DNA of 30,292 bases, taken from a virus. The DNA lies in IMG/VR virus record IMGVR_UViG_3300021964_000321, positions 1 to 30,292 of that record, one strand, 5' to 3'. Positions 4,944 to 29,903 of this stretch are shown here, in pieces (position 1 is the stretch's first letter; every line of letters starts with the position of its first letter). The translations under genes and the position numbers were made by a program. The notes under the pieces were generated by a model, which searched no databases, was not told where the DNA came from, and saw only the letters and a list, made by a program, of their open reading frames with translations.

Positions 4944-6467
4944 ATGGCTACACGTACAGTATGGCAAGATCTATACACGGTATTAGTAGATAAGACTTCT
5001 ATGGGTTCAAGAACACTAGCCCAGCATATTGCTGAGGGTACAGTTGACTATAATGCTTCAACAAATAGTCAAATCGGTATCCAGGGCTTGGGAACTAATA
5101 ATAACCCAGGATACTTTTCTATGCCGTTAAATGATCACCCAAACTTTAAAGCCCCTAGTGGTACGCTCGAAACAGAGCAAGCTACTGGATTGGCTACAAG
5201 ACGTAAATCCGAATATAATATTGTTCAAACAGGCGAAGCTGTTCAATTTAATCTTCCTCAGAACGGGGATGCTTACAACACTTCACTGTTTTTTCAATTA
5301 ATGTTTCAAACAGGATTTACACAACTATCACACTCAGATATGGCAACTGCAGGGATGAATATATATAAGGCATCACCTTATACTCTAGCAGATACAACAT
5401 ATTTTGCACAGTTTACTCGTCACATGCAACCAAGTTCTGGTAGTGATACCATTGACTTAGTTGTTAGAGGCGGTATCTGTCACACAATGGTTGTTTCAGC
5501 CGAAACTGGTGGGGTATTAACTATTGAACCAACTATCTATGGTGCTAAATGGGCACAAGAAGATAGATCAGGTCAATTATCAGGTAGTACTAGAACAAAT
5601 CCAGAAAATTCATTTGCGAACATTGTTCCTTTGAAATTCCAAGATTCAACATTCGCTATCTTAGATATTGATTATGATAACACTCAAACTATTTCTGCAA
5701 CCTTTGGAGCAACAGTATCTTCACCTTATGCAGGTGGAACTATTGGAGATGCCGATACAGGTGGATCTATCTTTACATCCGGTAACGGATTTGTAGATGC
5801 TACAGTAGGCGGTGCAGGTATGGTAATAGTAGAAGGCTCAGAAGCCGGAAACGATGGACTATACAGAGCGGATGTAACTGATGCAGATACATTAACTTTA
5901 ACTGAAATAAATGACGGTGAAAATACAACTTTTGCTGCTGAAACTGCTACAGCAGGTGTTAAAGTAACACCAGCATCTTGGAGAACCATTAACTCACCTT
6001 CTGTAAGTTTAACCTACACTAATAATTGTCAATTCAATTATTACAACGATGACGTAGCATCAAACGCTATTGTTGGTAGATTAAATGTTGAAGGTACATT
6101 CTCTATGCCATTTGGTACAGACAATGTAGGTAATAACTATTTCATTGACAGATTCCTTGCAGGTCAAGAATTTATGATTGCATGGTATTGGGGTCAATCA
6201 GGAGCAGCAGCTAATGTTGCCGCTGACTATAGATTACAACCTGAAACAGGAACTGCAATAGATAGACAGAAAAATGATTCTGCTGCAAACGATGTAAAGA
6301 ACTATGCTTCTTTTGTTGTTTGTGCTAGAGCAACTGACTACGAAGTATCAGGTGACAACGAAATGATGATCGATGTTACATTCCAAGGCGTTAAGACCCT
6401 ATGGGCTCCTTCCGCAATGGACGCTTACTTTGCAGTAGATAATACACTATTAGATAGAATTGTATAA
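4944..6467 (+). CDS. Major tail (tube) protein with inserted beta domain
   Basis: The 507-residue protein is beta-rich throughout and lies just before the two tail-assembly chaperone frames, where siphoviruses and myoviruses carry the tube protein. Residues 1-250 (SEYNIVQTGEAVQFNLPQNG, VVRGGICHTMVVSAETGGVL, LTIEPTIYGAKW) and 345-507 (SPSVSLTYTNNCQFNYYN, YEVSGDNEMMIDVTFQGVKT) look like a tail-tube fold. Residues ~253-348 are a separate Gly/Thr/Asp-rich beta domain (VIVEGSEAGNDGLYRADVT and neighbours) of a kind often inserted in phage virion proteins, probably displayed on the outside of the tail. AGGAG precedes the ATG. A perfect 10-bp hairpin follows. Length is greater than that of simple tube proteins because of the insertion. 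Confidence 0.72.
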   Translation: MATRTVWQDLYTVLVDKTSMGSRTLAQHIAEGTVDYNASTNSQIGIQGLGTNNNPGYFSMPLNDHPNFKAPSGTLETEQATGLATRRKSEYNIVQTGEAVQFNLPQNGDAYNTSLFFQLMFQTGFTQLSHSDMATAGMNIYKASPYTLADTTYFAQFTRHMQPSSGSDTIDLVVRGGICHTMVVSAETGGVLTIEPTIYGAKWAQEDRSGQLSGSTRTNPENSFANIVPLKFQDSTFAILDIDYDNTQTISATFGATVSSPYAGGTIGDADTGGSIFTSGNGFVDATVGGAGMVIVEGSEAGNDGLYRADVTDADTLTLTEINDGENTTFAAETATAGVKVTPASWRTINSPSVSLTYTNNCQFNYYNDDVASNAIVGRLNVEGTFSMPFGTDNVGNNYFIDRFLAGQEFMIAWYWGQSGAAANVAADYRLQPETGTAIDRQKNDSAANDVKNYASFVVCARATDYEVSGDNEMMIDVTFQGVKTLWAPSAMDAYFAVDNTLLDRIV

Positions 6468-6585: not shown

Positions 6586-7053
6586 ATGGCAATTAAAGGT
6601 GTTTCAAAGAAAGCTGTTGCTTATATTCCTGAGGAAGAAAGAACAGTTAAAGAAAATCAAACAGTAGTATGGATTAAACCAAAGACGGGGCACCAAGCCA
6701 ACGTTACTATGGCTAGATATGCTGCTGCAGGTAAAGATGGCCGTAAAGGCTATAGGGAATTAAATGTAACTAAACTAGATAACGCTGATTTACAAGAGTT
6801 CCTAGATGTAGTTATGAAAATTGAGAATTTTTATTTCTCAGACCAATTTCCAGATTTAGAAAAACAAGGGTTGCACACAGTAGTGGAACAACCAGAGTTA
6901 TTAAAGAAAGTGGCTATGGATATTTCAGCTGATTTATTAGTTGAGATCATGGAAGCATCGAATAACTTAGCAGTCTTAAAACAGGGCGAAAAAAAAAGCT
7001 CCAACTTATCACCTACTTCAGCCTCTGGCGAAGTGAAAAAAGACAAAGACTAA
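6586..7053 (+). CDS. Tail assembly chaperone, short form (gpG-like)
   Basis: 155 residues with AAAAGGAGAT before the ATG. It has a beta N-terminus (QTVVWIKPKTGHQANVTMAR) and a helical middle and C-terminal part (LQEFLDVVMKIENFYFSD, LLVEIMEASNNLAVLKQ), ending in a hydrophilic tail (SPTSASGEVKKDKD). Such proteins coat the tape measure before the tube polymerises. The gene lies between the tube and tape-measure genes, exactly the lambda G/T position. Its last ~90 bases contain two A-runs from which ribosomes can slip -1 into the next frame, which is open there. Function is from position, size and the frameshift layout; sequence similarity to lambda gpG is not visible. Confidence 0.7.
   Translation: MAIKGVSKKAVAYIPEEERTVKENQTVVWIKPKTGHQANVTMARYAAAGKDGRKGYRELNVTKLDNADLQEFLDVVMKIENFYFSDQFPDLEKQGLHTVVEQPELLKKVAMDISADLLVEIMEASNNLAVLKQGEKKSSNLSPTSASGEVKKDKD
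6989..7041 (+). other. Probable -1 programmed frameshift region (G/GT type)
   Basis: The -1 frame becomes open at 6966 (TAA at 6963-6965) and the zero frame stops at 7051-7053, so a slip must occur between them. Exactly two slippery runs lie there: nine A (6989-6997, containing A-AAA-AAA in the correct phase) and G-AAA-AAA (7035-7041, also in phase). A slip at the second keeps the hydrophilic linker SASGEVKK and joins it to RQRLRSYDCETC; the first would read LQLITYFSLW, which looks out of frame. ACTTGC (7071-7076) and GCAAGT (7080-7085) form a small hairpin downstream. The second site is therefore favoured. Confidence 0.72.
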
Positions 7054-7142
7054 GAAGTTACGATTGCGAAACTTGCATAGCAAGTAAAACCTACAAAGGT
7101 AGGGCATGCTTCCTAGATAAATGGCCTGGACAGGAAAGTTAT

Positions 7143-7586
7143 ATGTTTAATGTACCAGTATTTGATGATCAGGCGTTGAACCAAACTCCGGTTAGGTACG
7201 AAAAAAAGCAGTTAACGCTAGAAAACCTGTTTGAAGAATTAGATAAGGTGGAAGACAATTTCCCAAGCATGCCTCCTTTTGAGGCATTAAGAATGTATTT
7301 TACTGAGACATGTCCTCAATCTATAATGGATAGTTATTATATGTTCTTATTAGAGACTGAACAATCAGCCAGAGAATACCATCAATTGCCTTTTGATGGC
7401 GGCTTATGGGATCAGCCTAGACAATTATTAGATATATTTACAACTATTAGATCAGAACGAAATCAATATGAACGAATTCGTTATGAACAAATGGAAAGAA
7501 AGAATAAGAAAGCACAGGCAACTAGTGATATGCCTGGGGCTAAGAATTTAACAATGAACGAGGATCTACCTCCAAGGCAAGGCTAA
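7143..7586 (+). CDS. Tail assembly chaperone, T domain (expressed mainly as frameshift fusion)
   Basis: An ATG-initiated reading would give 147 residues, but the frame is open back to 6966, and the extension from about 7044 reads like real protein: RSYDCETC, then about 14 residues to a third Cys, then FLDKWPGQESY. The likely main product is thus a ~333-residue fusion of the upstream chaperone with this domain, made by -1 frameshift. The ATG has a weak AGGA seven bases before it and might also be used. The domain is helical with VRYEKKQLTLENLFEELDKV, FEALRMYFTETCPQSIMDSY and YYMFLLETEQ, and a charged C-terminus. It should recruit the tube protein to the tape measure. The stop overlaps the next start (TAATG). 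Confidence 0.7.
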   Translation: MFNVPVFDDQALNQTPVRYEKKQLTLENLFEELDKVEDNFPSMPPFEALRMYFTETCPQSIMDSYYMFLLETEQSAREYHQLPFDGGLWDQPRQLLDIFTTIRSERNQYERIRYEQMERKNKKAQATSDMPGAKNLTMNEDLPPRQG

Positions 7587-8275
7587 TGGCAATAAAGTTT
7601 ACATACGGCGGAAGAAATTATGAAGAAGCTTTTGAAGCTTTCGGTAAAGTAGCAGAAACGCTTGATAAACTTAAAAAAGAAATGGGGGAACTAACCCCGC
7701 TCTTTAATAAGATAGCTGATCCTTTAGTTAGCACAGTAAAAGCTAGATTTGATACTGATGTATTAAATGAAATTCCTTATAATGAAGATGCACCTGGTGC
7801 TAAACGTTCAGTACATACAAAATTAGCCAGGGTTAATCCTGGTGGACCTACTCTAAAAGATTCAGGTAGGTTACAACGTAGTATTAGAAGATTAAAAAGC
7901 CCTACAAAAAGTAAATCAGGTGGACAAAGGGAAGTTAGTACACTAAGAATTGGTACAACAGGAGTACCGTATGCTGAAGATCATCTATATGGTGGTGAAT
8001 GGATTATTGAAGGCTGGGAAAAGAAATATGCTTATGGCGGAAAACAAAAAAGTAAATTCTTTACAGACTTTGATGCCATGAATTACCCTAATGGTAAAAC
8101 TAATGCTTCGGAGTATGGGGCAAACTTTGCTAAAATATCTAGTTATCCTCAAGCTCGAAGAAGAGTTGAAGTACCTATTAGGAATTTCTTAGCAATAGAT
8201 TTTGAAGTTGAAGATTTCATTAATGACAATGTAGTAGATTTTGCAAATAAGATGTTAGAAAAATATGGCAAGTAG
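7586..8275 (+). CDS. Tail completion / virion morphogenesis protein (Mu gpG-like)
   Basis: 229 residues. The segment GPTLKDSGRLQRSI (about residues 86-99), followed by LRIGTTGVPYAEDHLYGGEW and later SSYPQARRRVEVPIRNFLAI, matches the layout of the phage virion morphogenesis / tail completion family (Phage_tail_S type): a P-L-x-D-S/T-G-x-L-x-x-S motif, a YA-x-x-H turn with nearby Gly-Gly, and a P-x-R-x-F-L close to the C-terminus. Such proteins act at the head-tail joint or tail end. The start overlaps the upstream stop by one base, and the end overlaps the tape-measure start by 11 bases, suggesting translational coupling. Its place after the chaperones rather than before the tube protein is slightly unusual. 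Confidence 0.68.
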   Translation: MAIKFTYGGRNYEEAFEAFGKVAETLDKLKKEMGELTPLFNKIADPLVSTVKARFDTDVLNEIPYNEDAPGAKRSVHTKLARVNPGGPTLKDSGRLQRSIRRLKSPTKSKSGGQREVSTLRIGTTGVPYAEDHLYGGEWIIEGWEKKYAYGGKQKSKFFTDFDAMNYPNGKTNASEYGANFAKISSYPQARRRVEVPIRNFLAIDFEVEDFINDNVVDFANKMLEKYGK

Positions 8276-11200
8276 ACAAAGTAATAGATTAGAGATGTTA
8301 ATTAACATCACTTCCAAAGGTGGCCCAGAGCTATCTAAATTAGGGAGTGCTGCTAAAAAATTAGGTGCTATCTTTGACCATCTAGATAAAGCTATGGAAA
8401 AAGCTGAACTGACTACAAGAGAAGGCCGTGGAGAGTATAAGAGATTTGCGGGGAATATAAAAGGGTTAATGGCAGAAACCAATAAATATAGTCAAGCTAA
8501 ACAAAAATTAAATAAAGAGTTGCGGAAAGATCCTTCTAAACAAAATGCAGCAACTATTGATAAATTAAGATCAGCAACAGCAAAAGCTATGTCTGCTGCT
8601 AAAAGTTATGGTAAATCAGTAAATGAAATAGTTCCTGGACTAGTTAAATTGAATTTTACAAAGAAGGAAGTATTAAAGAATACTAAGTTATTGGCACAAG
8701 CTGAAGGTCAAGCCGCAGCTAAGGCAAAGAATTTTATAGGAGTAACAAAACAAAAAGACCGTGCAACCAATAGATCCAGTAGCGCTGTTAAAAAGAATAC
8801 TATCGATATTAAAAAGAATACAATTGAAGTTAAGAAGAACGAATTTGCAAACAACCAATTAAGGCAACGATTAGATACTACGGGTGGTGGAGCATTTGCT
8901 AGAATGAGAAGATCTGCTGGAGCTTTAAGAAATCAACTCCTACTTTTAACATTTGCTACTGCTGCATTAAGATCTGCATTTAATTCTTCTTTTGCTGCTG
9001 CTAATGAATTAGAAGCATCTTTAAAAGGCTTAGGAGCAGTTGCTATTAATACAGGAGCTAGCTTCGAAGGTGCTAAACAGGCTGCTTTAGATCTTAACAA
9101 GCAAGGATTATTAAGTATCCAAGATGCTGCAGCTGGTTTGAAAAATTTATTATCATCAGGATTTGGTTTACCAGAAGCTATTAAATTAATGAACACATTA
9201 ACTGATGCTGCTTCATTTAATAGACAGGGAACACTGGCTCTGGGGCAAGCGGTTGTAGGGGCTACACAAGGTATTAAAAATCAAAACTCAATCATGGTTG
9301 ATAATGCTGGTATTACTAAAAACTTATCAATTATGTATAAAGAATATGCAGCTAGTATTGGTACATCAGCAGGTAAATTAGATGAAGCTCAAAAACGTCA
9401 AGCTATATTCAACGGGATATTAAAAGAAGGTGCAGTATTTGCGGGTAATGCTGATGCAGTTATTAATACAATGGCTGGATCATTAACAGTATTAGGAGTA
9501 AATTCTCAATTAGCTGCTGCAGAAATGGGTAAATTAGTTCAACCTCTAGCTTCTGGATTTGTTAAAGCATTTGCTGACAGTTCAAAGGCTATTGAAACTT
9601 TTGCTAAAGGTATCCAAGACAGTGATACTCGAATGGTTGCTATGCTTGAAATAGGTTACAAGATTGAAGACTTTTTCTCTAGTGTTGCTTTGGTTGCAGG
9701 AAATGCTGGTAAAGCTATTTCGGGTTTAGTATTAAGTATAGTTAATTTTAGCATTGGCGGAGTTAGTGCAGCAGGATCACTTCTAAAATATATAGTTGTA
9801 ATGAAAGCGTTTTCAGCTATAACGGGTAGAGTGACAATGACTCAAGCTGCGGCAAATGAGCAATTGATGGCAGGTAATGCAATATATAAAATCAATACAA
9901 GACAAGTTTTATTCCAAGATGCTGCTTATAAAAATCTTAATGGTACATTAACAATGGTTAAACTCCAATATGCTAGTTTAAATGTAAATATGAAGGCAGT
10001 TTCATTCTCCCTTACTGGGATGTCAAACTTAATCAGTAATTTAGGCGCTAAGTTTATGGCCTTAGGAACTGCTATAAAAGTTACCACGGGAAGCAGCTCT
10101 GCATTTATTGGCGGAATGACCCTAGCGGTTAATACATTAGGAAGAGCATTTTTTTCATTATTCAAATTTGCTTTGAGATTTTCAGCAATTCTTTTTGCTT
10201 TTAATATTGTTAGTGGGATTATTGGTAAATTCACAGGCTGGAACGAAGCCTTAGAACAAACTGAAAAGAATGCTAATAGGAATACTACTGCCTTAGAAGC
10301 TTTAAGACAACAGATAGCAGGGTTAGACGGTCAAATAAATAGAACACTGGTAACTTCAAGGAAGTTTACTGACCAGTTATCTAATCAAAGTGCTTATTTA
10401 ATCCAGTCAAGTATAGTAAAAAGTGAACAACAAAAATTAGTTGCACTTAGATCCCAGTTTAATAAAGATATGTCTTTAAAAGAACAAGCTGCATTACAAG
10501 TTCAAATCGATAAACAGATAGAGGGATTAGAGAAAGAACAAGCTTTATTAACAGAATATCAGAAAAAGATTGAAGCTTTAAATGCTGAACATGAAGCTAG
10601 GATTGCTGGTGGAATTGTTCGCTTAAATGCTCAGAAAACTATTCTACAAAAAAGACAAGGCGTTGAAGATGTACTAACTGCATTTCAAACTCATTTAGAT
10701 ATCCTTGACCAGCAAGCTGATTTCCATAAAACTAAATTAGCAGCAGTGGACCAAAATAACTTTGAGATATTACAAGCTGAAAAAGATTATGCTCAAGCTT
10801 CTCTATTTGCAGAACAAGAAGTTAACTTTCAAAGAGCTGAATTATTAAAACAAGGCTTTAATAAAATGGAATCTATTAGAACACAGTATGATAAGAAAAT
10901 GATTGAGTCTGATTTAGATGAACTGGGTAGAATTAAAAAGAAATATGAAAACCTTAGACGGGTAGAAGTAGCGGGAATCAATGCAATTGCAGATAGTATG
11001 GTTGGTTCAGAAACAGCTGGAAATACAGCATTGGGTGCAAGCTATGCAGATGCAACTAGGTCAATGGGGGGAGTTGATGTTGGACAAAGCGTTCCAGGAG
11101 GGGGATATGGTACAGGTCAATTAAAAGAATTTATAGCTTTACAAGGTAAACTAAAAGAAACATTAGCTAATACTAATTTAACTGAAGCACAACGTAATGC

Positions 11201-12704
11201 TATCTTAACCGATTATAATAAAAAATTAGATATCCAAAAAGCTAACTTCCAATTAGTTATAGATACTTATAAACAAGCCGGAGATGGTAAAGAACAAATA
11301 GCTTATTTTAATGAAATTAATAAACAGATTGATACTCAAAAAGAAAGTATCGGTAAACTAGGAACTCAATATAGTGCTTATACTGATCAGCTTGATAAAT
11401 CTAAAACAAGGGTAGATGAAATTAATAAACAAAGAGAAGAAACTATCAATAAAGCTAAAGAACAATTAAATAATGAAGAGTTGATGATGTTGGGAGCTGC
11501 AATGTATAGGGAAGACCTAAGACAACTCGGTAATACTTATAAAGAATTAACCAATCAGGTAATGTTATATGGTGATGCTAATACAGGACTGTTAAGTCAA
11601 TTGGATAGAAACTTAATGTTCCAAAAAGATTTAAATAATGTAACTGAGCAATATAGAAATTCTGTTCAAGGGGCAAAATCTATGTTACTAGAATTCCTTA
11701 ATCCTATGCAAACCTCAGATGATCTAATTCGTAAACAAGCTGAGGCAACAGACAAACTTGCATTAAAACAAGCAGAAGCTCAAGCTAAGGCTAAAGATAA
11801 TGTAACGCTTGCAAAATTACAAGCAGAACAAGAACAAGCTCAACTTGACTACATGGAATCAAAACCTGCATTATTTGCTAAAGAAATAGGGCTCCAAAAA
11901 TTAAGAAGAGATGCTGCTGATGAAAAAGTAAGAGCTACAGAAAAAGAAATCGAAGTATTAGAAAAATTAAATGATATAGAGAAACAAGCCTTATTAGATA
12001 ATAACAGTGCTGAAAGGGTTCAACAGCAAATAGCAAACTTTCAAAAGTATGCTGAATTCTTTAGTGGGTTTATTGGGAAGATGCAAGATCTTGAAAGTAA
12101 CCGACTAATGGCTAATATGAAATATCAGAAGAGCCTAAACAAAGAAGTTATGAATGGAGTACTAAATCAGAAACAAGCTGATGCATTAGCTCTTGAAAAC
12201 ATGAAGGTAACCAGAGCAGAAAAAGCAAAACAAGAAAAGCTTGCACTTGCTGGATTGATTAGGGATGTAGGAAGACAAATTATGGTTTACGCTGCTAAGA
12301 AGGCAGCTGAAAGAGGCCAGATTGGTCAAGCACTTGGTTTACTTGCGGCAGGGGTTGCAGCTAACGCATTGATTAACAGTTATGCTAATAAGATAACTCG
12401 AGAAGCTGAATCTGATTACATGGATGCTCAAAATAGATTTGAAAGAAGAGAAGCTGAAATAAGAGGAGAAGGTGATAACCAGGCAGGATCAGCTAATCAA
12501 CAAAGATTTGGTGGATCTATTAAAGCTCAAAACTTATCGGTTGAAATAAATCCAACGGTGGTAATACAAGGGGAACAAGTCTTTATAGGACAAGGAAGTG
12601 TAAATGAATTTGGGGCTGAACTACAATCCCTATTATTAACAAGTGTTAACGATGCTATTGAAAATAGAGAAATTGACTTAAGCAATGTTTCGGACAGGGG
12701 ATAA
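8265..12704 (+). CDS. Tail tape measure protein
   Basis: 1479 residues, the second-longest gene. Residues 1-200 are Lys/Ala-rich helix with a short internal repeat (KKNTIDIKKNTIEVKKN near 175-192). Residues ~210-460 resemble the conserved tape-measure core (NELEASLKGLGAVAINTGAS, LGQAVVGATQGIKN). Hydrophobic stretches lie near 222-246, 485-513 and 628-656 (FFSLFKFALRFSAILFAFNI) and a weaker one near 1350-1375; such segments fit a role in membrane passage of DNA. Residues 690-1310 are long coiled coils. Tail length scales with tape-measure length at roughly 0.15 nm per residue, suggesting a tail of about 0.2 micrometre. It is translationally coupled to the upstream gene. No peptidoglycan hydrolase domain is evident by eye. 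Confidence 0.9.
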   Translation: MASRQSNRLEMLINITSKGGPELSKLGSAAKKLGAIFDHLDKAMEKAELTTREGRGEYKRFAGNIKGLMAETNKYSQAKQKLNKELRKDPSKQNAATIDKLRSATAKAMSAAKSYGKSVNEIVPGLVKLNFTKKEVLKNTKLLAQAEGQAAAKAKNFIGVTKQKDRATNRSSSAVKKNTIDIKKNTIEVKKNEFANNQLRQRLDTTGGGAFARMRRSAGALRNQLLLLTFATAALRSAFNSSFAAANELEASLKGLGAVAINTGASFEGAKQAALDLNKQGLLSIQDAAAGLKNLLSSGFGLPEAIKLMNTLTDAASFNRQGTLALGQAVVGATQGIKNQNSIMVDNAGITKNLSIMYKEYAASIGTSAGKLDEAQKRQAIFNGILKEGAVFAGNADAVINTMAGSLTVLGVNSQLAAAEMGKLVQPLASGFVKAFADSSKAIETFAKGIQDSDTRMVAMLEIGYKIEDFFSSVALVAGNAGKAISGLVLSIVNFSIGGVSAAGSLLKYIVVMKAFSAITGRVTMTQAAANEQLMAGNAIYKINTRQVLFQDAAYKNLNGTLTMVKLQYASLNVNMKAVSFSLTGMSNLISNLGAKFMALGTAIKVTTGSSSAFIGGMTLAVNTLGRAFFSLFKFALRFSAILFAFNIVSGIIGKFTGWNEALEQTEKNANRNTTALEALRQQIAGLDGQINRTLVTSRKFTDQLSNQSAYLIQSSIVKSEQQKLVALRSQFNKDMSLKEQAALQVQIDKQIEGLEKEQALLTEYQKKIEALNAEHEARIAGGIVRLNAQKTILQKRQGVEDVLTAFQTHLDILDQQADFHKTKLAAVDQNNFEILQAEKDYAQASLFAEQEVNFQRAELLKQGFNKMESIRTQYDKKMIESDLDELGRIKKKYENLRRVEVAGINAIADSMVGSETAGNTALGASYADATRSMGGVDVGQSVPGGGYGTGQLKEFIALQGKLKETLANTNLTEAQRNAILTDYNKKLDIQKANFQLVIDTYKQAGDGKEQIAYFNEINKQIDTQKESIGKLGTQYSAYTDQLDKSKTRVDEINKQREETINKAKEQLNNEELMMLGAAMYREDLRQLGNTYKELTNQVMLYGDANTGLLSQLDRNLMFQKDLNNVTEQYRNSVQGAKSMLLEFLNPMQTSDDLIRKQAEATDKLALKQAEAQAKAKDNVTLAKLQAEQEQAQLDYMESKPALFAKEIGLQKLRRDAADEKVRATEKEIEVLEKLNDIEKQALLDNNSAERVQQQIANFQKYAEFFSGFIGKMQDLESNRLMANMKYQKSLNKEVMNGVLNQKQADALALENMKVTRAEKAKQEKLALAGLIRDVGRQIMVYAAKKAAERGQIGQALGLLAAGVAANALINSYANKITREAESDYMDAQNRFERREAEIRGEGDNQAGSANQQRFGGSIKAQNLSVEINPTVVIQGEQVFIGQGSVNEFGAELQSLLLTSVNDAIENREIDLSNVSDRG

Positions 12705-23806: not shown

Positions 23807-25915
23807 TTATTGTATGACGGTTGATACGCCGTCTTGTTTTCTAATGGTTATTGTATTTGCGAAACGGGTTTTTAAATCTGTATTATGCGTAATCAATAAT
23901 TTCATACCCGTAATACTTTGTAATAGATTGAAAAATTCCCCAATACCTGTTTCATCTAATGAGTCGATAACTTCGTCCATCATTAGGAAATTGAAATTAG
24001 AATATCCTTTAGTTAAAGTCAATTCTCTTAATGCAAACCCTACACAAACTCCAATTCTTTTGGTTTCTCCTGATGAATAAGTTTCAAGATCACGTTTTTC
24101 ATTGTTTTCATCAATAATTGATAAATCAAAAGCTTCTTTAAATTGACCTTTACCTGATTTCTTTTCGGTTAAGGTATCAAAGCGTGTTCTCATGCCAACT
24201 TCCATTTTATTTAAATATCCATTGGTTTGTTGTTCAAAAGTAGGTAAGAAAGCTTCAATCATCCATCTACGGATAGCAGGGAAGCCATCAATCCAGTAAG
24301 TATAATTAGCAATATTTTCTAAGGCCCCGTTCTCTTCTTCAATCATTTTATCTAGTTGGGATTGGTCTTGAGCTCTACTGTCTAGTTGAGCTTTTAATCT
24401 AGCCACTTCATCTGTAATATTAGATAACTGTTTATTAGCAGTTTCTATACCGCGTTCAAGGTCAAATGTACTTAAGTCTTCATCAATATTAAAAGTACGT
24501 ATTTTAAGTTCTAAACCAAGTTTCTTTTTTGATAATTCTTTTACTTCTACTGAAGTAGCTTTTTTCTTTGCTTCAATATTAGATTCTAACTCTTTTACCT
24601 GGTTTGGTATATCTTGAACACCTTCCAATAATTGGTAATTATATTTTATATCGTTTTGTGTTTGTAAAATAATATCTTGGTGTTTTTTTAACTCATTGTA
24701 CTCATGTTGTTTCTTTTCTAATAAAATATTAATATTATCTAATTCAACCGTTAATTTACTTTGTTGAGTTTTAATACCTTTACTATCGTATGATTTTATT
24801 TTTCCTTCTTCAACCATTAACTCCGTATTACAGTCAGGGCAATATTGAGGTTCTTGTAGTTGAGAATCCAAAGATTGTAACTGTAATAATAAATTATTCT
24901 TCTTTATCTTACCTTTTTCTAGCCATTCTATAAATTTGTCTAAATCTTTGTCTTTAAGAGCGTCAGCTTTTGCCATTGATTGTTCTTGTAGCTTTTCTAT
25001 CTTTTCTTTGATAGCGCTTGAATTAGACAGCTTATTTTGTAGACCTTCAATTTGTTTTGTGTATATTTCTACAATAGTATTTAATTCGTTATTATAATGC
25101 TCAATGTGGCCATCAACGTCAGCTATTTGAGTTTTAATGTCTTCATAATTAGTAGCAGCCTCGTGTTGAATTTTTAATTGCTTAATATCCGCTCGCAATT
25201 GTTTTTTGCTTACTTCATATTCTTGAATATCAGATTCTATTTGTTCTTTATTAAAACCTTCATTTAGTTTGTTTCTTAGAAACTCAATTTTACCTTGAAC
25301 AACTTTTAAGTCACTCTTTAAACGATTGGCATAAATTTTAGATTTTGAAGTAGCCTTTTCTAATACTTCTAAATTCAAAAATCGAGATATTAAATCCATT
25401 CTATCTTTTGAAGTTGATTTTTTACCTGCAAAAGCTTTTACGGCATCAACACTAAAGTATGTAGTATTTAAAAAATCAGAGAAATACTCTGTGTTATTTT
25501 CCAGTATACCAAAGTAGTTTAATAAAGTATGCTGAGTTTGTTTCATAGTCCGTTGAGTTTGACTTTCTCCTTCAATAAACCATTGAAGCTTGTGCTTTCC
25601 TTTTAACTGCCTTTCTCTGACTATTTGTATTTCTCTATTTTCTTCATCAAAGAGTCGTAAACAAACCCTAACCCTAGTAGTGCCCCTACGAATAACGTCG
25701 TCACTATCAACACTGCTAGGAGTGCGGCCGAAGATAGCCCAACTAATAGCGTTAAGAAAAGTACTTTTGCCCGCCCCATTACTATCTGCACCTGCTGCAT
25801 CATTGTTTTCTCCTATAATTAATATCTTATCATTTGGATCATAACGGTCAAAATCAATAGTAACGTCTTCACCGAATACACCAAAGTTTGTTATATTTAA
25901 ATCTTTTATTCTCAT
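23807..25915 (-). CDS. Rad50/SbcC-like ATPase (gp46-type recombination endonuclease subunit)
   Basis: 702 residues with the full layout of an SMC/Rad50 ATPase. The phosphate loop is GENNDAAGADSNGAGKST (35-52). Long coiled coils carry a central zinc hook CPDC at 359-362. The ABC signature YSSGETKRIG is near 612-621, Walker B FNFLMMDEVIDSLDETG near 639-655, and the switch histidine in LLITHNTDL near 672-680. It pairs with the adjacent Mre11-like nuclease to process double-strand ends, as T4 gp46-gp47 do. The start overlaps the nuclease stop (ATGA), giving 1:1 coupling. The phosphate loop is longer than the cellular GPNGSGKS form. All key motifs are present, so it should be active. It is shorter than SbcC because of short coiled coils. 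Confidence 0.95.
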   Translation of the reverse strand: MRIKDLNITNFGVFGEDVTIDFDRYDPNDKILIIGENNDAAGADSNGAGKSTFLNAISWAIFGRTPSSVDSDDVIRRGTTRVRVCLRLFDEENREIQIVRERQLKGKHKLQWFIEGESQTQRTMKQTQHTLLNYFGILENNTEYFSDFLNTTYFSVDAVKAFAGKKSTSKDRMDLISRFLNLEVLEKATSKSKIYANRLKSDLKVVQGKIEFLRNKLNEGFNKEQIESDIQEYEVSKKQLRADIKQLKIQHEAATNYEDIKTQIADVDGHIEHYNNELNTIVEIYTKQIEGLQNKLSNSSAIKEKIEKLQEQSMAKADALKDKDLDKFIEWLEKGKIKKNNLLLQLQSLDSQLQEPQYCPDCNTELMVEEGKIKSYDSKGIKTQQSKLTVELDNINILLEKKQHEYNELKKHQDIILQTQNDIKYNYQLLEGVQDIPNQVKELESNIEAKKKATSVEVKELSKKKLGLELKIRTFNIDEDLSTFDLERGIETANKQLSNITDEVARLKAQLDSRAQDQSQLDKMIEEENGALENIANYTYWIDGFPAIRRWMIEAFLPTFEQQTNGYLNKMEVGMRTRFDTLTEKKSGKGQFKEAFDLSIIDENNEKRDLETYSSGETKRIGVCVGFALRELTLTKGYSNFNFLMMDEVIDSLDETGIGEFFNLLQSITGMKLLITHNTDLKTRFANTITIRKQDGVSTVIQ

Positions 25916-26982
25916 AACACTTCTTTCAAAATATCTACCCCTAAGTCAACCATATCAGGTCGTTTTTGTTTTTTACAATAAACATCAATACCGTCTTGCC
26001 ATGAAGTTGTAGAATCAATCTCTGGTACTCTAATACGTGACTCATTTAAACTTCTATGTTCAAAAAATAACTTATGAGCTTCAAGCGACTTTAGTATTCT
26101 GCTCCTGACTTCGCCCATATTAAATCGTAAATACCAGTCTTCTTCGCCCACAAATATTAATTTAACTACATAATCCTTTAATGATTCCCATTTATATAAT
26201 TGAGCAAAGTCGGGGTCATCAGATTCATTAATAGTGTGCTGAAAGAATGGTCTATCGTTTACATCAATAAATTTATGTTCAATCTTTTCATTAGTAGCTT
26301 CTAGCCATAAGAAACCTTTCTTGTCATTGCGTTCACCAAAATCAACTTTATGTAAACTACCAATATACATCCATTTTTTAGTGGATTGAGGCTTATGATA
26401 GTGCCCTAAGTAAGTATAGCGGTGGTGATTAAATAATTTTGGATTTACCCCTAGACTTAATACAAATTCAGTACCTGATACAAGAGCTCCATCAACACCC
26501 CAATGTCCAAAAACAATTTTGTTTTTGGTTTTAGTTAACCATTCCGCAACAACCTCATCAGTTGTCCAGGGGATCATAACCGTGTCAACACCTTCTAATT
26601 GCATTTCACAAGGCTCACTTAAGACGGTTATGGCGTTGCTGTCCAGCATATTAAAGATTGAAGACTCGGTCATCAAGCTATATACTTTAGCGTCTGTATC
26701 GTGGTTACCTATTAATACAATTATTGGGATCTTGTGTTGGACAAGGGGTGCTAATACTTCAACAAAAGCATTTCTTAAGCTTTCAGCTGGATTAATCTTG
26801 TCGAATACGTCGCCCAGACATATCCAATGAGTCGCGTTGTGTTCTATTGCATAGTTTACACTCTTGGTCAAGTGATCCAGACAATCCTGTAGTCTTGAGC
26901 TCCTCCCGTTTGGTAGGATCTTCCCATACTTGTCCGTTGTTCTCAAATGTATATCCGTAGTTATTACTGCTCGTAAGCTCAT
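25912..26982 (-). CDS. Mre11/SbcD-like nuclease (gp47-type recombination endonuclease subunit)
   Basis: 356 residues with all metallophosphoesterase motifs of Mre11 nucleases: D-x-H at 10-12 (TTDIHLR), GDVFD at 57-61, GNHD at 92-95, GHWG at 159-162 and GHYH at 193-196. The C-terminal ~120 residues are the cap and Rad50-binding part. It works with the neighbouring ATPase on DNA ends in recombination-dependent replication. The start is supported by AGAGGA five bases ahead and by the need to keep D10/H12. Its first 191 bases overlap the preceding small gene in another frame. Complete motifs and normal length give high confidence. Confidence 0.94.
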   Translation of the reverse strand: MSLRAVITTDIHLRTTDKYGKILPNGRSSRLQDCLDHLTKSVNYAIEHNATHWICLGDVFDKINPAESLRNAFVEVLAPLVQHKIPIIVLIGNHDTDAKVYSLMTESSIFNMLDSNAITVLSEPCEMQLEGVDTVMIPWTTDEVVAEWLTKTKNKIVFGHWGVDGALVSGTEFVLSLGVNPKLFNHHRYTYLGHYHKPQSTKKWMYIGSLHKVDFGERNDKKGFLWLEATNEKIEHKFIDVNDRPFFQHTINESDDPDFAQLYKWESLKDYVVKLIFVGEEDWYLRFNMGEVRSRILKSLEAHKLFFEHRSLNESRIRVPEIDSTTSWQDGIDVYCKKQKRPDMVDLGVDILKEVL

Positions 26983-27154
26983 CTATTTCCTCTGTTTGTA
27001 TTTCTATTGTATTACCATTAGTTACAGATTCAAACATTATTGTTTGCCCTGTATCCCATATTAAATAAACATCACCATCAGTACTGGTAGCAATGTTACT
27101 TTGAGCGGTTAGTATACTTAGCATCATCCCCGCTATGTTCACAATCCTATTCAT
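26792..27154 (-). CDS. Small exported protein overlapping the Mre11-like gene
   Basis: 120 residues with a very strong SD (GGGAGG six bases before the ATG). Residues 1-~22 look like a signal peptide (MNRIVNIAGMMLSILTAQS: basic start, hydrophobic core, small residues at the end). The mature part begins with TDGDVYLIWDTGQTIMFES and NTIEIQTEEIDEL, likely a small beta domain. Residues ~58-120 are encoded in the 191 bases shared with the start of the nuclease gene; this half is charged and could be partly a by-product of the overlap. It sits 18 bases after the FkbM gene in the same operon. An exported early protein could act in the periplasm, for instance in superinfection exclusion, but function is unknown. 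Confidence 0.6.
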   Translation of the reverse strand: MNRIVNIAGMMLSILTAQSNIATSTDGDVYLIWDTGQTIMFESVTNGNTIEIQTEEIDELTSSNNYGYTFENNGQVWEDPTKREELKTTGLSGSLDQECKLCNRTQRDSLDMSGRRIRQD

Positions 27155-27172
27155 TATGATCCTCCCATTTAA

Positions 27173-27760
27173 TCATAAAATCCCATATAAGTTTGTAGCC
27201 TCAGTATAAACAAGATATCCTTTACTCTCTAAAAACTCTTTAGTATATATATCATTTATATGAGAGTGTTCTACTTTTATCATAAGGGGTTTAATATTCC
27301 ATGAATAACTTTCAAGTATATTTAACTCATGGCCTTCTGTATCAACTTTCAAATAAGTAATATATTTATATTTATACTTGGCAATAAGACTATCAAGAGT
27401 CATGCATTCTACGTCTATGACTTTTTCAAGAAGTGGTTTATTCTTGTCTAAATCAAACATTCTTTCACCTTTGTGGTTATCAGCAAGTACCGATGATATA
27501 CCTCGAATCCAACCATTTTTAGTCCCAGGTTCACCCATATCTTTAACACATCCAAAACTTATTTTTCCATCGTAATCGCTTATAGCAATATTTTCCAGAA
27601 ATAAGTTTTCTCTATTTTTTACGTCTTTAGCCTGATCACTTAGATTATTAAAATATTGAGGTGCGGGCTCACACATAATGCCTTCCCAACCCCCCTTGTC
27701 TATAAGTGATAGATTAGTATCAAAATCACAAGACCCAATCTCTATAAATGTTTTATTCAT
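27173..27760 (-). CDS. FkbM-family methyltransferase
   Basis: 195 residues. The S-adenosylmethionine-binding start FIEIGSCDFDTNL (5-17), the acidic turn CEPAPQYF (30-37), the AISDYDGKISFG segment (59-70), and LKVDTEGHELNIL (137-149) together are the signature of FkbM methyltransferases, which mostly O-methylate sugars of glycans or natural products. The glycine-rich loop is IGSCDFD rather than the more usual G-x-x-G, a small deviation. GAGGG lies before the ATG, and the start overlaps the glycosyltransferase stop by eight bases, so the two enzymes are probably co-translated and act on the same product. No membrane or signal part is seen, so it works in the cytoplasm. Confidence 0.85.
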   Translation of the reverse strand: MNKTFIEIGSCDFDTNLSLIDKGGWEGIMCEPAPQYFNNLSDQAKDVKNRENLFLENIAISDYDGKISFGCVKDMGEPGTKNGWIRGISSVLADNHKGERMFDLDKNKPLLEKVIDVECMTLDSLIAKYKYKYITYLKVDTEGHELNILESYSWNIKPLMIKVEHSHINDIYTKEFLESKGYLVYTEATNLYGIL

Positions 27761-28721
27761 TTTCCCTCTTTTCTATAAAATGCCTTGGGTTATCAAAATT
27801 TGACAAAAGTAGCTTTTGTAGAACTGGTCTATCAAACCATGAATAGATAGTATTACCCTCATGCCCTAATAACAAGTTCATATTTAAACAGGGGTCAAAC
27901 CCACATTGCTTAGCTCTCCAACCAAATGCATAATCCTCAGAGCGATAAAATTTAACTTCTTTATCTTGATAAGTTTCTTTAGTAACCAACGGGGTATAAT
28001 AAGCCATAGTTTCTTTATCGGGTACTACTGCTGGTAATGTATATGCTAGCTCTGGAAACTTTTTATCCATTGCTTCATAAACAGAACGGTGAGTCAATAG
28101 AAAACCCGTAGCAAGCCTGTCAGTTTCAATATAATTATCCGGGCGTAGTTTATATTCTATTTCCCATTTTTCTTCGTTGAGAGGGTCAAATAAAGAACCA
28201 GCCTCATTAAAATTTTTGTTACCACCTCGCCAAAAGTAATAACCGCCAACAACTTTTTTACCATCTTCAATACCACTTCTAAGTATTTCATCAATAGCGT
28301 TCATATTCAAAGCAAGCCTAAATACACCTTCATTTAAAAATAAATTAAAAGTATCAGTATCCATCCAGTTTGCATAGTATTGAGCCAAGTCTTGGCCAAT
28401 GCCATAAGGAAAGATTATATCACTATCAATTTGTAATTGCCATTCACAATCACTAGCTAAAAATGATGAAGCTAACTTATCCCTAGCCCTACAAACCAAA
28501 CTATCATTTGATAAGAAATTAAATTCAACTTTGAGTTTGTCTTTTAATATTGAATTTTGTAAAGCATATTTTAAAGCACTATCTTGATTTAGATTTAACT
28601 TTCCATCATAACTAGGCAAAGAGATATGAAGTTTTACATCTTCTTTTACTTTACCTTCCCACCAAGGGTAATCCCCTACGGGTTTATCAGCTCTCAGCTG
28701 TTTCAATTCTTCTTTTGCCAT
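27753..28721 (-). CDS. GT-A type glycosyltransferase
   Basis: 322 residues. The nucleotide-sugar fold begins with VKLHISLPSYDGKLN (29-43). A D-x-D metal motif is at 99-101 (LQIDSDIIFP) after RARDKLASSFLASDCEW. DRLATGFLLTHRSVY (201-215) and SEDYAFGWRAKQCGFDP (261-277) form the acceptor-side and E-D motif typical of GT-A enzymes; LGHEG (285-289) may supply the metal-binding His. A first segment of ~25 residues precedes the fold. The acceptor cannot be told: cell-surface glycan, virion protein or modified DNA base are possible. It overlaps genes on both sides (35 and eight bases) and has only a weak SD, so translation is likely coupled. Confidence 0.8.
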   Translation of the reverse strand: MAKEELKQLRADKPVGDYPWWEGKVKEDVKLHISLPSYDGKLNLNQDSALKYALQNSILKDKLKVEFNFLSNDSLVCRARDKLASSFLASDCEWQLQIDSDIIFPYGIGQDLAQYYANWMDTDTFNLFLNEGVFRLALNMNAIDEILRSGIEDGKKVVGGYYFWRGGNKNFNEAGSLFDPLNEEKWEIEYKLRPDNYIETDRLATGFLLTHRSVYEAMDKKFPELAYTLPAVVPDKETMAYYTPLVTKETYQDKEVKFYRSEDYAFGWRAKQCGFDPCLNMNLLLGHEGNTIYSWFDRPVLQKLLLSNFDNPRHFIEKRENE

Positions 28722-28938
28722 CTTTCTTTATACCTAATATGTTTAAAAGATTAATAATATGGCCTCTTATCAAACCAGCAATAGTGTCAAGGTTATCCTC
28801 AGCAATATCACCGTTTTGATAAGCAGCCAATTCAACACAACCATCAATTATTTTTTGGATGGACTCTTTTTGTTGAGCATCCAAATCATATTGATTAAAC
28901 ATTATATTAATAATATCTTTCTTTAGTTGTGGTTCCAT
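28687..28938 (-). CDS. Small helical protein after the recombinase, unknown
   Basis: 83 residues; its ATG overlaps the recombinase stop by one base (TAATG), and its 3' end overlaps the glycosyltransferase start by 35 bases. Mostly helical: MEPQLKKDIINIMFNQYDLD, ESIQKIIDGCVELAAYQ, LIRGHIINLLNILGI, then a charged end (KKDGKRRIETAES). No membrane segment of sufficient length. The tight coupling to the recombinase suggests a partner or regulator of it, but nothing in the sequence proves this. Family not recognised. Confidence 0.55.
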   Translation of the reverse strand: MEPQLKKDIINIMFNQYDLDAQQKESIQKIIDGCVELAAYQNGDIAEDNLDTIAGLIRGHIINLLNILGIKKDGKRRIETAES

Positions 28939-29903
28939 TATTCTCCAGTAGCTTTATCAATTTCTTCAAATATGTCAGCTTCTTCACCATAAGTCATTTC
29001 TTCCTCTAATGGTTCAATTCTACCATCTCTCCATAATTTTAGATCATATTCACAAAGAGGTGGAGCAAGCTTATTCTTTGGAGCTTTAACTCTAACCTGT
29101 TTAAATAATGGTTGTCCATTTTCATCTTTCTGTCTTGATTTTTTCATGTAACTCATACCAAGTCTAATTGATGAAGCAAAGTTAATTGCATCACCACCCG
29201 GTGTGTATGTTCTTTCACCAAACATAACCCCGATTTTATCCTTAGCATGATTGATGAAAATAACGGTGGCTTTTTTGTTATAGACTTTATGAACTTCATT
29301 TCCGTCCTTGTCTTTAACAAAGCCCTTCCCTTTGATTGGTGATTTGACTTTAAAGCCACCCATTAAATCATTAAAAAAGATAGTAAACATTTTTGCTCTT
29401 TCAAGCCTTTGGTTCATCTTCAATGAAACTGCTTCGGTTTGTTCACTCATCCCACCTGGTTGTAATGCGGGCATAGAGTCAACAATAATAATATCACAAG
29501 TATCAGAAGCTAATAATAGTTTTAATTTATATAAAGCATCTTCACCCAAATTAAATTCGGGTAAAATAAGTTTATCATTATCAATACCACAAGCGGCCCC
29601 ATAAGTTGGTAAGTAAGCACCCTCTCCATCAAAGAGAGCAGCTACCCCGCCTTGCTTTTGAACTTGTCCAGCAAACCAATAAGCTAAAGTAGATTTACCT
29701 ACTGAAGGCTTGGCGTACATTTCAATTATTCTTCCTCTTGGTAATCCACCACATCCTAATACAGAATCGTTCAATCCTTTAATATCAGTTGGAATTACAT
29801 CAAGATTTCTTGTCTCTGAAGCTACAATACCACTGCCGCCCAAGACATCAAGGGCAGCAGTTATATTATCTATAGGCTCAGATGATTTTGCCTTTTTTAC
29901 CAT
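28938..29903 (-). CDS. RecA/UvsX-like recombinase
   Basis: 321 residues with a clear RecA core: Walker A AKPSVGKST (64-72), the catalytic Glu in FDGEGAYL (E94), Walker B IIIVDSMPALQP (138-149), and INHAKDKIGVMFG (217-229) leading to TPGGDAINFASSIRLGM, the loop-2 region. It should form filaments on single-stranded DNA and catalyse strand exchange. Differences from bacterial RecA: the first Gly of the P-loop is Ala, the sensor Gln after IN is His (INH instead of INQ), a Lys/Gly-rich insertion lies at ~184-211, and the RecA C-terminal domain is absent. These are in line with phage-type recombinases. It overlaps the upstream gene by seven bases. An accessory Rad51-like ATPase is less likely. Confidence 0.9.
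   Translation of the reverse strand: MVKKAKSSEPIDNITAALDVLGGSGIVASETRNLDVIPTDIKGLNDSVLGCGGLPRGRIIEMYAKPSVGKSTLAYWFAGQVQKQGGVAALFDGEGAYLPTYGAACGIDNDKLILPEFNLGEDALYKLKLLLASDTCDIIIVDSMPALQPGGMSEQTEAVSLKMNQRLERAKMFTIFFNDLMGGFKVKSPIKGKGFVKDKDGNEVHKVYNKKATVIFINHAKDKIGVMFGERTYTPGGDAINFASSIRLGMSYMKKSRQKDENGQPLFKQVRVKAPKNKLAPPLCEYDLKLWRDGRIEPLEEEMTYGEEADIFEEIDKATGE

Follow-up and report, generated by a model that had tools for sequence, protein, structure and literature searches.

Known tail assembly chaperones and the locus in the window

The closest described system is the G/GT pair of phage lambda, which lies before the tape measure gene in two overlapping frames, with a -1 shift near the end of G that yields one G product and one G-T product. 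ReqiDocB7 (Rhodococcus) and Hollow (Gordonia) also have chaperones before the tape measure gene, annotated in these two phages as joined frameshift coding sequences; their T part has a C-terminal GG.xDQ motif in the -1 frame and lacks a Cys motif.

Here we analyzed a virus record of 30,292 bases (the window; all coordinates refer to the whole stretch). By layout and by its signals, one locus in it is a frameshift tail assembly chaperone pair. Its frames run in the same arrangement as in lambda and by layout give the same two products, and the T part has the same kind of C-terminal motif as in ReqiDocB7 and Hollow. The virus infects bacteria and very probably makes a second tail-building helper protein through a one-base ribosome slip, as lambda does. 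Such -1 frameshifting is of an already known kind; the new part is a T domain with four conserved cysteines (Cys4). We consider it very likely that the locus is an ordinary -1 frameshift chaperone pair that slips at A AAA AAA and whose T part carries a predicted zinc-binding Cys4 site. The features are as follows.

4944 to 6467, tail-protein-like gene (weak PHROG match, E 0.028)
6586 to 7053, plus strand, zero-frame chaperone (G-like), 155 aa, an ORF with relatives 29 to 97% identical, immediately preceding T and the tape measure gene
6990 to 6996, plus strand, slip site A AAA AAA, in phase, inside the A9 run at 6989 to 6997, with equivalent in-phase heptamers in relatives
6996 to 7586, plus strand, T-type domain in the -1 frame, 196 aa, fused to G residues 1 to 137, conserved over its full length, with a codon-position flip and an AlphaFold2 model
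7035 to 7041, plus strand, G AAA AAA, in phase, probably not a slip site
7065 to 7067, plus strand, Cys 1, T residue 24, invariant
7074 to 7076, plus strand, Cys 2, T residue 27, invariant
7107 to 7109, plus strand, Cys 3, T residue 38, invariant
7143 to 7145, plus strand, ATG, possible internal start only, AGGA upstream, clade-specific (window and L002 to L005)
7311 to 7313, plus strand, Cys 4, T residue 106, invariant, downstream of the ATG
7386 to 7418, plus strand, LPFDGGLWDQP motif, T residues 131 to 141, common to many frameshift T domains
7586 to 8275, Neck1/Phage_tail_S-like gene
8265 to 12704, tape measure gene

The gene order is thus tail protein, G, T, tail-completion-like protein, and tape measure, which places the G/T pair between major tail protein-like and tape measure genes, and a slippery in-phase sequence near the end of G leads into an open -1 frame that continues into T. 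The zero frame ends with TAA at 7051 to 7053. The open -1 frame spans 206 codons, 6966 to 7586, and overlaps the last ~19 codons of G; the open reading frames confirm the zero-frame stop and the open -1 frame given in a first-pass annotation made from the sequence alone. Stop-free stretches of 59 codons are rare in the -1 frame of the window's plus-strand genes (10 of 6351 windows, 0.16%); chance is therefore an unlikely source of the open frame even on this count, and its conservation decides the question.

Among cultured phages, the window's own G and T found no match, and Pfam and PHROGs searched with both gave no usable family; PHROG 9001 (tail assembly chaperone) was matched at E 0.014, by a single member of set A6. 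Elsewhere in the window, the minus strand from 23807 to 29903 holds recombination genes, including an SbcC/Rad50-like ATPase and a RecA-like protein, together with a calcineurin-like phosphoesterase that is SbcD/Mre11-like by pairing.

A T domain with four invariant cysteines

In the first-pass annotation, the ~30 residues, three of them Cys, that lead from the slip site to the ATG at 7143 suggested a small joint. The sequence elements that it listed (RSYDCETC, a third Cys, FLDKWPGQ) are present as described, but this segment forms the beginning of an entire folded T domain of ~196 residues, and four Cys are invariant, the fourth lying downstream of the ATG. An AlphaFold2 model of T residues 1 to 167, built from 24 sequences including distant ones, reached pLDDT 90 and pTM 0.81 (pLDDT was 55 with 15 sequences). 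It consists of N-terminal helices, a CxxC that starts a helix, a two-stranded part, and further helices. The sole isolated strand residues in the model, 37 and 105, adjoin Cys 38 and Cys 106, which suggests that these two cysteines may be neighbors in the predicted fold.

Searches of the PDB with T found no match by sequence profile and none of significance by fold (best E 0.19, best VIA Z 3.4), and this lack of a fold match is no demonstration of a new fold. The fold search matched viral proteins of unknown function. These included V9QJJ1 (85 aa, probability 1.0), which has the same length as L338C_032, and, in BFVD, a 147-aa protein of an uncultured virus that is 91% identical.

The window T has exactly four Cys. 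In 20 T sequences reaching down to 27% identity, C24, C27, C38, and C106 are invariant and account for 80 of all 93 Cys; R36, D112, L131, P132, G135, G136, D139, Q140, and P141 are invariant as well. An alignment of 12 sequences down to 15% identity still keeps the four Cys along with L131, P132, G135, and Q140. With four invariant cysteines that include a Cx2C, the T domain probably binds zinc, as judged from its residue pattern. No Pfam zinc family matches the window T above its curated cutoff; the T of one distant relative (L033) hits Prok-RING_2 at E 0.042, below the curated cutoff.

Alternatively, the frameshift fusion could be as described here while its four Cys form disulfides or a redox switch with no zinc site. 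The even number of invariant Cys would suit this, and CxxC occurs in thiol-redox proteins too. Assembly chaperones work in the reducing cytoplasm, however, and the four Cys are always retained together as Cx2C-xn-C-xn-C, which is the usual zinc pattern. We therefore consider the disulfide or redox account unlikely and favor a zinc site.

As the first-pass annotation had supposed, a metal-type Cys element is not a feature of lambda: lambda T has no Cys, against four in the window T, and no sequence similarity was found between the two. The window also differs from lambda in its slip sequence, A AAA AAA. The titles and abstracts searched on tail chaperones with Cys or zinc contained no description of a Cys4 T domain, which within that scope is apparently undescribed.

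Relatives among cultured phages

Six cultured phages, Rhizobium phages L338C, RHph_I4, and RHph_TM16, Agrobacterium phage JP1, and Rhodobacter phages RcTiptonus and RcZahn, encode a -1 frame T whose four Cys come in the same order as in the window and which shares its LPxxG...Q motif (Cx2C...C...CP...LPxxG). In each case this T follows an in-phase heptamer, and the gene pair lies a short way ahead of the tape measure gene. They differ from the window in their slip sites (G GGA AAC, A AAA AAC, and A AAA AAG), in a shorter middle part, and in a more stable downstream RNA. None of their records contains a joined frameshift coding sequence. Profile-profile alignment (hhalign) of the window-type T against the alphaproteobacterial T set gave 94% and E 9e-8 through the C-terminal part; the Cys part lies outside the aligned region, and its homology between the two sets rests on order and spacing.

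The C-terminal part of T also gave weak matches to the frameshift chaperones of Rhodococcus and Gordonia phages (E 5e-4, and 0.08 upward), the ReqiDocB7 match at E 5e-4 being obtained from the T of L024. Since the four-Cys motif is missing from the T parts of lambda, ReqiDocB7, Hollow, and Bacillus prophages, only a subset of T domains has the Cys4 part.

For RcZahn, its authors reported no clear frameshift evidence (PMC8601537). The four-Cys signature suggests a slip site there, A AAA AAC at 23927 to 23933 of MW677529.1 (L058:998-1004); this in-phase heptamer precedes the gene 27 stop by 19 nt, and the -1 frame relative to that gene encodes the T part. Slip heptamers and a -1 frame T with four Cys are also present in L338C (L055:1498-1504) and RHph_TM16 (L060:998-1004), whose records show just separate hypothetical proteins, the L338C T being annotated from an internal start. 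In Bacillus-type prophage chaperones (L032, L035, L037, and L038), G terminates with A AAA AAC TA, and T is short (a frame of 77 to 83 codons), comprising just the GGYLDQP part.

The slip site and the start of T

Searches of IMG/VR with the T and G sequences, and with alignments of either, supplied the relatives. All of those whose T lies in the -1 frame share an in-phase A AAA AAA or A AAA AAC, and the equivalent of 6990 to 6996 is such a heptamer in L002 to L006, L016 to L028, L030, L031, and L033. Relatives retrieved from G alone have T in the -1 frame too, except L049. These observations bear out the proposal of a lambda-like -1 fusion. Nor, in any relative with a -1 frame T, is the stretch from the slip site to the equivalent of the ATG interrupted by a stop, which the first-pass annotation had named as a sign that would speak against it.

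The same annotation had proposed to locate the slip by where conservation of the -1 frame begins in related phages, and this comparison points to the first of its two sites. T similarity starts at the first residue after the A-run, as (K)LQLxTYFSLWKSEKRERxxxYDCxxCIA, so that the conserved -1 protein begins at 6996, ~49 residues before the ATG, and not after 7041. Pairwise differences at the three zero-frame codon positions are 0.34/0.12/0.58 upstream of the slip (22 codons) and 0.16/0.35/0.24 in the overlap (17 codons); recast in the -1 frame, the latter become 0.24/0.16/0.35, the coding pattern of that frame. At the slip, the substitution pattern by codon position thus switches from that of the zero frame to that of the -1 frame, which is under purifying selection from there on. 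In L022, L023, L024, and L026, the -1 frame is open only from the heptamer itself. The conserved heptamer, the retention of the -1 protein from its first residue, the codon-position flip, and early zero-frame stops in some relatives together place the slip at 6990 to 6996.

The heptamer A AAA AAA slips less than A AAA AAG in Escherichia coli, and the lambda products are made at 30:1 (PMC5009743); a low shift efficiency would be enough if the ratio here were like that of lambda. In L031 and L033, both distant relatives, hairpins begin a few nucleotides 3' of the heptamer (z -4.6 and -4.3). We saw no clear stimulatory RNA structure downstream of the window's own site (z -0.3), and for the window clade we rejected such a structure as stimulator (z near 0). 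By eye, a GGAG...CTCC pair flanks the A-run in several relatives. The T frame itself contains a further in-phase heptamer at 7202 to 7208, A AAA AAG, which is very shift-prone in E. coli.

The same fusion could in principle arise by polymerase slippage on the A9 run, with a fraction of the mRNAs carrying one extra A and being read straight through. The window does have the run, and L049, with A9 and T in the +1/-2 frame, would be served by such slippage too. Yet the homologous sites are just A6 or A7 in L021, L030, and L033, the Rhizobium phage sites include G GGA AAC, the X XXY YYZ phase is always kept, and the hairpins of L031 and L033 are positioned as for ribosomal stimulation. The short A-runs and the heptamer phase favor the ribosome, and we regard polymerase slippage as improbable. 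As to L049 (L049:3395-3420; IMGVR 3300020171_000088), a C and no G follows its A-run; its odd frame may reflect an error in base count, a -2 shift, or polymerase slippage.

Less probable still, and very unlikely in our estimation, is translation of T alone from the ATG at 7143, instead of or besides the fusion. The ATG is preceded, 7 nt upstream, by an AGGA ribosome-binding site in the window and L002 to L005, and the 147 residues of the BFVD homologue are the exact length of the ORF that starts there. Against this, the ATG is present in no other relatives, the first 62 T codons of L006, L019, L020, L021, and L030 contain no ATG, GTG, or TTG, and strong conservation extends over the 49 residues that precede it, among them three of the four Cys. 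A second, internal product is possible in the window's own clade. The length of the homologue agrees with the earlier expectation that normal gene calling misses the fusion; calling from 7143 loses three of the four Cys.

Of the two slippery runs in the first-pass annotation, A9 and G AAA AAA, both are indeed in phase and the second recurs in L003, L004, L006, and L014, but a slip at 7035 to 7041 with a 30-residue Cys joint is scarcely credible, because G AAA AAA is not X XXY YYZ (with G in place of A at the first position, the P-site tRNA could not fully re-pair), is missing from L011, L012, L013, and L015, lies downstream of the conserved -1 protein LQLxTYFSLWKSEKRER, and sits 45 nt further on than the first site, where it cannot work in L025, L028, and L031, whose zero frame stops 10 to 19 nt after the start of that first site.

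Proposed function and implications

What is observed is an open frame, a slip heptamer kept in phase across relatives, constraint by purifying selection on the -1 frame beyond the slip, and four invariant Cys; the frameshift level, zinc, and the binding partners we infer. In a frameshift model of this locus, the gene at 6586 to 7053 would be translated mainly as a G-type tail assembly chaperone, and a minority of ribosomes would move one base back on A AAA AAA and read on to 7586, so that a ~333-residue G-T fusion results. If the comparison with lambda holds, the G part would coat the tape measure protein encoded at 8265, and the T part would recruit the major tail protein (likely encoded at 4944 to 6467). 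The T part is predicted to be a single folded domain whose N-terminal half would be pinned by the Cys4 site (Cx2C x10 C x67 C), most likely a structural zinc site.

It is conceivable, although we hold it somewhat short of an even chance, that these proteins represent a widespread, undescribed class of T domains built on a structural zinc site and confined to the frameshift product. If so, tail assembly in these phages would need metal binding and ribosome slippage together. T domains of frameshift chaperones diverge strongly and most are without annotation; a four-Cys signature kept at about 15% identity offers a handle for recognizing them, and may also serve to correct truncated gene calls and to test the role of metal binding in tail assembly.
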